A stretch of DNA of 64,000 nt from NCBI RefSeq assembly GCF_900104665.1, contig NZ_LT629967.1, positions 503,624 through 567,623 of the forward strand, written 5' to 3'. Below, piece after piece: positions 4,245 through 51,708 of this stretch. This stretch comes from Traorella massiliensis. GTDB lineage: Bacteria; Bacillota_I; Bacilli_A; Erysipelotrichales; Erysipelotrichaceae. Below the pieces are notes generated by a model that was not told the origin of the DNA, did no database searches, and saw only the letters and a program-made list of their open reading frames with translations. The translations under genes and the position numbers were made by a program. Each line of letters opens with the position of its first letter. Position 1 is the stretch's first letter.

Positions 4245-5264
4245 CTATTTATTAGGTTCATATGGATATTTTTTAGATGCCCAGAAATACAGTTCTCCCA
4301 TTCTTGAAGCAAGATCAGCCGGATATTCAATGATTGCATTACTTCCAAAACGTGCAAAATAATTGATGAGCTGGTCATAAGAGCAGTCAAAATAGTAATC
4401 ATTTCCTTCAATTTTGAGTGGCAGTGGTCGATGGACATAAAAACGTTCAAACATTCTTCTTCCATAAGGCTCATTGAGGTGTACCTTAACGAGCTGATCA
4501 TTTGGATGATAAAGAAATTGTACACCATTACGTAAAGCTCTTGTATAAACATTTTTCTCTTGTTCACTAAATTCATGTTTATGATCATGAATGCTTAATC
4601 TTTCAATTTTTGAAAGACGGAATGTTGAAGGCTGTAATGTTACAGTGTCATTATAATTGAGGATGGTTGCTAAAACATAGTTATGTAGTTCTTCAAAGGA
4701 TGCGGCAATCCTGTAAGGTGCAGCCATGTATTTATCTTTTCCTTTATTAAGTGTAAAAATGATCGTTTGTTTTTTCTTGATGGCTTCGTCTAAGGTTTCT
4801 TTTAAATCCTTGAAAAGAATCAGTTCACGTTTATCTTGCGGCAATGATGCATATGAGGCAAACATGGAAGCATAATAAGAAGATATGCTTTGATTCTGAA
4901 GTAAAACTCTTTCAATATATTCTATCGTTGTCTCAGATTTTTTAGTAGGTTTAAATGAAATAGAAACAGATGCTTTTTTTGATATCCGCTGGTTTTTAAC
5001 ATTTTGAATCTGATGTGTAATCTCTTCTGAGAGACGATGATTTTCTTCAGTAGAAAGAGAAGAGTGATTGAGGATATTTTGGATCAATGTATGGAGATAT
5101 TTCTGTTTATTTTGATGTTCATCATAATAGTTAACTATTAAAGTATTGAGAAAGCTATTTATATTCACTTCTCCATTAGATTTGAGAAAACCAAAATTTG
5201 AAGCATCTTTTAATAAAGTTTCTTTTAATTCATTTGTAAGATATATTTTTATTTTTTCGCTCAT
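4245..5264 (-). CDS. WYL-domain transcriptional regulator
   Basis: This 339-residue protein has a long helical N-terminal half (about residues 1-150, rich in Lys, Gln and Asn) without a classical HTH that I can recognise. A WYL-type sensor domain follows at about 155-240 (YMAAPYRIAAS, then FRLSKIERL), and a C-terminal extension ends FGSNAIIEYPADL. WYL proteins act as ligand-responsive regulators, often linked to nucleotides. The first 40 residues (KIKIYLTNELKETL, with NGEVNINSFLN) resemble a ribbon-helix-helix-like DNA-binding start. It reads toward the AEC gene and shares the bidirectional terminator. The region upstream is the large RNA gene, on the opposite strand. Confidence 0.75.
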   Translation of the reverse strand: MSEKIKIYLTNELKETLLKDASNFGFLKSNGEVNINSFLNTLIVNYYDEHQNKQKYLHTLIQNILNHSSLSTEENHRLSEEITHQIQNVKNQRISKKASVSISFKPTKKSETTIEYIERVLLQNQSISSYYASMFASYASLPQDKRELILFKDLKETLDEAIKKKQTIIFTLNKGKDKYMAAPYRIAASFEELHNYVLATILNYNDTVTLQPSTFRLSKIERLSIHDHKHEFSEQEKNVYTRALRNGVQFLYHPNDQLVKVHLNEPYGRRMFERFYVHRPLPLKIEGNDYYFDCSYDQLINYFARFGSNAIIEYPADLASRMGELYFWASKKYPYEPNK

Positions 5265-5390
5265 AAGAATAATATACCTAAAAAGGGGTTATATTTCAAT
5301 ATAAAAAACTAAAAATAATATTTAAATATAATATAAAATGGGGTCGTGGAATTAATGTATTCGACCATTTTATTTTTATTGATTTTAATT

Positions 5391-5396
5391 TATAAT
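5391..5396 (+). promoter_or_regulatory. -10 box of the large RNA gene
   Basis: A perfect TATAAT lies about 6-8 bases before the start of the conserved-looking structured region. The -35 region is poor (TTTTAT). Confidence 0.5.
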
Positions 5397-5401
5397 AATT
5401 G

Positions 5402-5985
5402 TGCAAGGGAAATCCTGCTGATCTTTGACAAATATATCATTGAACCTTATGAAAGATAGGAGAGACACTCCTATAAGGATCAGGCTTGAAACGATGAGTT
5501 TAAGGGGAGGCTCTTAAAGGGTATCGTTAAAACACCAGTAATGTTGTTTTTGGATGAGTGACAACACTCAAAAATAAGTTTGAAGTAGGGTTCAGTTATT
5601 ATCGTAATGTAGATCATCCAGATGGGGTCATCGCCGACAGTACAGTGTATGTGTAGGGTAGTGATGTTAATGGGGTGGTAGCCAGTGACTAGCTATAGAT
5701 ACCAAATAAGCCCTTTGCAGTTGATGAACAGCAATGTTCTATAAGTCCGGATGATCGTGCAAGTAGGGGAAAACTGCACAAAGGTTATATTAGCAGATGG
5801 AAGATCCTATGTCCCTGAACGTTGGTCCCAGGAGGATTCAGAGCTTTGAAGCTAACGCTTAGCTGTGATTGCGTAAGTGTCGCTCGCTTGCAAGGAATCG
5901 CAGTTCTCTTGACAGAATAACGCCCTTAGCTGAATACTTAGTGTGAGAAACACCAATGATATATTTGTCAAAGATCAAATATCAT
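5402..5985 (+). ncRNA. large structured non-coding RNA, ROOL-like candidate
   Basis: No ORF of note occupies this stretch. Bases 5420-5442 are perfectly complementary over 23 bases to 5954-5976, forming one long closing helix around about 510 nt. Inside are nested helices: GATCATCC (near 5614) with GGATGATC (near 5749), AACGAT with ATCGTT around 5478-5528, and a long hairpin at about 5861-5903. GC content is clearly above the AT-rich spacers. A TATAAT box lies just upstream and an intrinsic terminator just downstream, so it is an independent transcript of about 580-620 nt. The size and single closing stem fit ROOL RNAs, a class of large structured RNAs known from Firmicutes and phages. OLE (usually near isoprenoid genes) and GOLLD are alternatives. 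Confidence 0.75.
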
Positions 5986-5986
5986 A

Positions 5987-6026
5987 AAAGGCTTATGCAG
6001 ATAATAAGAAGCATGAGCTTTTTTTC
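5987..6026 (+). terminator. terminator of the large RNA gene
   Basis: AAGGCTTATGC pairs with GCATGAGCTTT (two G-U pairs), followed by a T run ending at about 6025. Confidence 0.75.
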
Positions 6027-20629: not shown

Positions 20630-20740
20630 ATTGCTTTATTATTGTACTTCTCTAATTTCTTTTTTTCAATAGTTTCTTCAATTTTATTCAAAGGTACTTT
20701 ACAATTCTTTACAAGAGGAGTATTATAAAAATGCATAAAA

Positions 20741-20855
20741 TAACTTCAGGGCAGAGTGAAATTCTCTACTGGCGGTATACTCCGCGAACCAAATGATTGG
20801 CCGAATCGGTGAAACTCCGATAGCAACAGTTAAAGTCTGGATGAAAGAAGAGTAT
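20741..20855 (+). ncRNA. FMN riboswitch (RFN element)
   Basis: The conserved RFN blocks appear in order: TCAGGGCAGAGTGAAATTC, CTACTGGCGGTA, CCGCGAACC, CGAATCGGTGAAACTCCGAT and AAGTCTGGATGAAAGAAG. It binds flavin mononucleotide. It sits upstream of a terminator hairpin and the ribU-type gene, so it most likely stops transcription when FMN is plentiful. Confidence 0.97.
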
Positions 20856-20882
20856 TTTGTTGTATTCCTATATAGCAAGTAT

Positions 20883-51275: not shown

Positions 51276-51708
51276 AACATGGCCCCCTTTCTTTTCAAAA
51301 CAAAGGTTATTGTTGTGAAAGTGGGCAGAAAGTAACGGACGGCTGCTGGCACAGCTCCACGGGAATCTCACCCCTGCGTGGTTCTCACGCGGCCCTGCTC
51401 GTTGCCTGCGACGCTTCAAACGCTCGGACTACGACGGCAAGGGAGTATCATTGTCCTGTCTGCGCGTCGTCGCCCGCAGGCTGCCACACCTGCTTTACGG
51501 CCCGGTAAAATCGCTCCGCTTATCCCAATGAGGGAAAACCTCTTGGCGCACCTGCCGCCCGGCTCGGCGCAGACAGAATGTATCCGTCTGCCCTATGACG
51601 CGCCGCCATTGTCCTGCGGGCGTATTTGTCAAGGAGCAAAGGGGCCGCCGGGAAAACAGGCAGGCGGGGAAAGGGAAAGCCGCCTGTCTATGGCCGGGGC
51701 CTTAACCG
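51276..51708. other. intergenic region, no convincing gene
   Basis: About 430 GC-rich bases between xis and the Orf8-like gene. ORFs on the plus strand have unusual composition (Pro/Arg/Leu-rich, no ribosome site). It corresponds to the stretch between xis and orf8 of Tn916 that holds regulatory sequences and small reading frames. I see no clear terminator or tRNA. Confidence 0.5.

Follow-up and report, generated by a model that had tools for sequence, protein, structure and literature searches.

ROOL RNAs are among the largest natural RNA-only structures, and we know of no function that has been assigned to them. In the literature they come from phages and prophages, often from the neighbourhood of tRNA islands. 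ROOL was shown to form an octameric RNA nanocage (Kretsch et al. 2025, PMC12286853), and an octameric nanocage is likewise attributed to Ling et al. 2025 in PMC12515178. The authors of the ROOL cryo-EM structures have already put forward phage tRNAs as a possible cargo, on grounds other than those given below. Two further systems bear on the locus reported here. In Salmonella, the Rsr-Y RNA-RtcB operons react to damaged tRNA (PMC7790460). RspWYL1, an accessory protein of Cas13d, is a dimer composed of an RHH, a WYL and a C-terminal domain, and it binds ssRNA (PDB 6OAW, PMC6547453).

The 64,000-nt stretch of Traorella massiliensis DNA that was analyzed, hereafter the window, contains a ROOL RNA between a gene for a WYL regulator and maa. 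Like described ROOLs, this RNA matches the RF03087 model over its full length, has a closing helix, measures about 600 nt and is provided with its own promoter and terminator. Unlike them, it is chromosomal, its gene order is kept in two host species, neither a tRNA island nor phage genes accompany it, and it would be controlled by a WYL-type promoter of RNA repair. The loci of this kind resemble Salmonella rsr-yrlBA-rtcBA (PMC7790460) in having a regulator divergent to a structured RNA and an RtcB ligase operon and, where ROOL is lacking, a Ro60-like protein and a tRNA-like RNA. By contrast to Salmonella RtcR, a CARF/sigma-54 protein, the regulator is an RHH-WYL protein; the RNA is ROOL instead of a Y RNA, and the Traorella locus includes neither RtcB nor a Ro60-like protein. 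The regulator is homologous to RspWYL1 over its full length, with the same three domains, but no Cas13d was seen adjoining it, and it is placed divergent to ROOL or rtcB. The evidence set out below indicates that the host-encoded ROOL is probably the non-coding output of an RNA-damage regulon under the control of the RHH-WYL protein.

The ROOL RNA of Traorella

A preliminary description, made from the letters of this DNA, had recognized a large structured, ROOL-like RNA and called for a covariance scan. When a short stretch was scanned with Rfam models under permissive filters, RF03087 (ROOL) was matched at 5421-5972 (+) with 169.7 bits (GA 99.1, E 4.3e-38) over positions 1-574 of the 574 of the model, which bore out the assignment. 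ROOL was alone in reaching a meaningful E-value among 4227 families, and OLE and GOLLD gave no match. When the Rfam models were run over the entire window in gathering mode, no match was returned at this place, most likely owing to the speed filters, and divergent ROOLs such as the Traorella copy may escape routine annotation.

The RNA is closed by a perfect helix with arms at 5419-5442 (+) and 5954-5977 (+), of 24 bp and not 23 bp as first described, and the 511 nt between the arms agree with the earlier figure of about 510 nt. The predicted fold of 5402-6026 had an energy of -193.4 kcal/mol (z -5.95), and none of 20 shuffled sequences folded equally well. Other elements named in the preliminary description were found as well: the interval from the start of the WYL gene (5264) to maa (6069) has no ORF reaching 60 aa, a TATAAT -10 hexamer occupies 5391-5396 (+), and an intrinsic terminator, consisting of a hairpin of 13 pairs with a 12-nt loop and a following T run, is located at 5986-6023 (+). 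A terminator scan skipped this hairpin only because of its loop limit of 8. The transcript would start about 7 nt past the -10 hexamer and end at the terminator, covering 5403-6024 (+), ca. 620 nt, with a small 5' hairpin ahead of the closing helix (5403-5418, +) that is stronger in the second Traorella genome described below. The base pairs of the Rfam model were mapped onto the window sequence. UGGU at 5676-5679 is complementary to ACCA at 5701-5704, a candidate for the J6/8-L8 kissing contact by which ROOL monomers are bridged, in a part where the MAFFT alignment is unreliable and the published numbering is unmapped. The helix arms have no second occurrence in the 2.6-Mb genome and the element is single-copy; a MITE, to which the inverted repeat could have belonged, was ruled out on this ground.

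In the second Traorella genome (G003), ROOL is 93% identical to that of the window and the order WYL, ROOL, maa, NUDIX and alcohol dehydrogenase is kept. Identity between the two genomes was 79–89% for the neighboring genes and 73–80% for the flanking non-coding DNA, and G003 has a terminator hairpin of different sequence at the same place. Among the Rfam pairs formed in the window, 14 differ in G003, of which 12 still pair, three of them by double change. One altered but kept pair, 5434/5962, is inside the closing helix, and is A-U in the window and G-C in G003. When the same substitutions were placed at random, 7.8 pairs were broken on average, with a probability of 0.0004 of breaking two or fewer. 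This comparison of two sequences, the window and G003, yielded the compensatory changes that had been suggested as a check, and supports the view that the structure of ROOL is under selection in Traorella.

The genes around ROOL are host genes, with no visible phage genes or prophage; known phages showed no meaningful similarity, and the single tRNA of the window is 15 kb away. A host location outside any recognizable prophage, as proposed at first, is therefore retained. By contrast, the two flanking genes had been taken as unrelated to the RNA, and for WYL this has to be abandoned: in other genera, too, the regulator is found divergent to ROOL or to an RtcB operon, and the promoter layout is common to these loci. 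ROOL and WYL are both missing from three other Traorella genomes. Elsewhere in the window, a pemK RNA motif (RF02913, 57.9 bits) was detected at 51357-51454 (-) and an FMN riboswitch at 20738-20856 (+).

The WYL regulator and the shared promoter layout

The gene divergent to ROOL (4245-5264, -) encodes an RHH-WYL protein of 339 aa, a proposed activator and sensor. Pfam WYL was found in 9 of 11 members of this WYL family, the window member by itself falling under the cut-off, and a profile of the family matched RspWYL1 (6OAW) over the full length with an E-value of 5.8e-33. WYL relatives were found in at least 39 of the 273 genomes of the taxonomic family. None of this kind was present in the phage records and viral contigs searched, nor in the plasmid set, except for one weak match from Fusobacterium. 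The regulator that neighbors the L. salivarius lncRNA (pMP118, 177.9 kb) is a small HTH protein and not a WYL protein.

Upstream of close WYL relatives, two direct GKGGTY boxes, 54–56 nt apart and reading toward the partner of the regulator, were found at 26 WYL loci, those with ROOL included. A -10-like hexamer follows 51–52 nt past the second box at 25 of them, and the remaining locus has masked N there. In the window the boxes are GGGGTT at 5285-5290 (+) and GGGGTC at 5340-5345 (+), 55 nt apart, and the -10 hexamer at 5391 comes 51 nt after the start of the second box. The window thus has the layout that marks the WYL/RtcB regulon, namely a divergent RHH-WYL gene, the box pair and the -10. 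The pair is unique in the window on both strands, and its strict form, present once, was absent from all of 100 shuffles. Across the fetched loci of the family, all 27 box pairs belong to promoters of WYL or of ROOL. The one beyond the 26 WYL loci is that of the ROOL of genome G163, which is 3.4 kb from WYL and has a box pair and -10 of its own, indicating that the boxes belong to the promoter of the output and not to the WYL gene alone. Genome G115, whose WYL protein is a distant relative (23%), lacks the GKGGTY boxes and has instead a direct repeat of 11 nt at a distance of 66 nt. At locus L105 (genome G178) the spacing of the boxes is 67 nt, which exceeds the usual value by about one helical turn, and the interval from WYL to rtcB contains a gene for a 149-aa protein and another RNA with a T-arm-like stretch.

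The binding of ssRNA by the nearest solved relative of the regulator (PMC6547453), and the position of ROOL as first product of the promoter facing WYL, would also fit a ROOL that acts as ligand or decoy of WYL, a feedback RNA titrating an RNA-binding protein. However, most loci run the same regulator and promoter without ROOL, and distant ROOL lineages occupy the same place, so that this role is very improbable.

Linkage of ROOL, WYL and RtcB in related genera

The survey covered one bacterial family, represented mostly by draft genomes, and few candidates were scored per genome (one search missed the ROOL of the window itself), which makes the counts lower bounds. WYL was found divergent to RtcB, often together with DUF2828, at 19 of 41 mapped loci without ROOL and at 4 with ROOL. 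In the repair operon of these related genera a tRNA-like RNA comes first, often followed by a DUF2828/DUF7788 vWA protein, which is taken to be Ro60-like, and then by RtcB (PF01139). No hidden ROOL was found in the other WYL loci.

Other RNAs were noted at such loci. Ten of them (L085, L086, L088, L092, L094-L096, L098, L102 and L117) have an RNA of about 500 nt between WYL and DUF2828. Three to four stem modules follow one another in it, the motif ACAGCAA recurs, and stretches resembling the T-arm of a tRNA are inserted (GGTTCGAATCCC). In appearance it is an elaborate Y RNA of several modules that would partner the Ro60-like protein. At the RtcB loci L092, L095, L096 and L098, as many as 10 tRNA genes form an array behind the WYL gene and convergent to it.

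ROOL is the immediate divergent partner of WYL in seven genomes, those of the window, G003, G085, G089, G103, G115 and G177; of the nine genomes with a WYL relative as well as a ROOL, eight have the two no more than 4 kb apart. The order in G085, G089 and G103 is WYL(-), ROOL(+), rtcB(+), with ROOL 33–34 nt from the start codon of rtcB, a Shine-Dalgarno sequence and no terminator in between. In G163, WYL(-) and DUF2828(+) come first and, farther on, ROOL(+), an ORF and rtcB(+), with ROOL 22 nt before the ORF and about 330 nt before rtcB. An RNA that serves three genomes as 5' leader of rtcB, and that is so close to an ORF in a fourth, could be a cis element controlling the downstream gene (rtcB in these three, maa in Traorella) in the manner of a riboswitch or stability element. 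By contrast, ROOL has a terminator hairpin of its own behind it in both the window and G003, and in the window some 45 nt separate this hairpin from maa; the ROOLs of solved structure exist as free, stable octamers (PMC12286853), and in L. salivarius the lncRNA reaches the abundance of 16S rRNA (PMC5643018). Regulation in cis is for these reasons quite unlikely.

In Traorella massiliensis itself no RtcB was found in the genome and no Ro60-like protein at the locus, so that the link to repair runs there through the regulator and the promoter only. None of 80 viral RtcB contigs has ROOL within 4 kb. This result counts against ROOL as a regulon output; together with the absence of WYL from phage and viral records, it makes the linkage of WYL with ROOL and RtcB a feature of host loci. 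The literature searched, mostly outside subscription journals, yielded no joint mention of ROOL with WYL or RtcB.

At least 25 ROOL copies were found in the family. Many are in apparent mobile elements, some with tRNA islands; the box pair is missing from 18 of the 25, and 17 lie away from WYL, which also counts against the regulon. Two species have tandem ROOLs about 30 nt apart (L077:9127-10236 and L078:9244-10362), one of ca. 575–587 nt and the other of ca. 505 nt, near tRNA-Ile and tRNA-Ala; no rRNA was found at the L077 pair. The ROOLs of L014 and L074 adjoin arrays of 19 and 22 tRNA genes, the usual setting in mobile elements, and directly downstream of that of L014 is a gene for a TraG-like/terminase-like ATPase.

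Trees were used to count the origins of the association. The ROOL tree rejected a single origin of the WYL-linked ROOLs (AU p 7e-6 with eight rows, 0.002 with the seven box-linked ones), and the WYL tree rejected a single clade of ROOL-linked WYL proteins (AU p 9e-5), its well-supported branches forcing at least three changes. A ROOL tree that unites the Traorella pair and the G163/G177 pair was not rejected (p 0.42), and at least two separate associations are therefore the safe statement. The best trees suggest three to four such associations.

These results bear on the idea of ROOL as a passenger, derived from a phage or other element and settled beside a WYL gene that the boxes alone would serve, any function being that of phage ROOLs. 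The abundance of family ROOLs in apparent mobile elements and the three Traorella genomes devoid of both genes would be expected of such a passenger. The boxes, however, match the -10 of the output RNA everywhere in orientation and phase (51–52 nt), the G163 ROOL keeps a box pair of its own far from WYL, pairing is kept in G003, and the linkage arose repeatedly. A passenger origin thus appears unlikely.

A proposed role in RNA repair

ROOL identity, structural conservation, promoter architecture and repeated linkage to WYL and rtcB are supported by sequence, and they underlie our view of ROOL as output of a WYL-controlled regulon. In this regulon, the divergent RHH-WYL protein would sense RNA, as judged from the ssRNA binding of its relative RspWYL1, and would switch on an activator-type promoter with GKGGTY boxes 55 nt apart and the -10 hexamer 51 nt on; we infer both the binding to the boxes and a damage signal. 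In related bacteria, this regulator with its promoter would drive the tRNA-like RNA, the DUF2828/vWA (Ro60-like) protein and RtcB, and in some lineages ROOL would have been inserted ahead of rtcB as 5' leader. With WYL in the position of the regulator, ROOL would replace or join the Y RNA/Ro60-like/RtcB output, and in Traorella, where RtcB is absent, it would be the output of the regulon.

ROOL would then build up when RNA is damaged. If it behaves like the solved ROOLs, it could form a hollow octamer in which tRNAs or RNA fragments are held or shielded for as long as translation is stalled. More tentatively, and as a possibility to which we give somewhat less than even weight, ROOL may be an RNA-cage effector of bacterial RNA repair, switched by WYL, that guards or sequesters tRNAs or tRNA fragments. 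Besides the counts and the lack of RtcB in Traorella mentioned above, two observations speak against the regulon: the output of WYL is more often an RtcB operon than ROOL, and the knock-out of the L. salivarius lncRNA (PMC5643018), called ROOL in PMC12286853, had no clear phenotype.

The Traorella locus provides a host-encoded ROOL held in place across two species, apart from phage genomes. The repeated genomic and promoter link with WYL and RtcB names a stress (tRNA cleavage, RNA damage) and a gene (WYL), and so makes the function directly testable. If the proposal is true, it would give a natural RNA nanocage its first function, and the ROOLs that phages carry next to tRNA islands would serve phage tRNAs in the same way.
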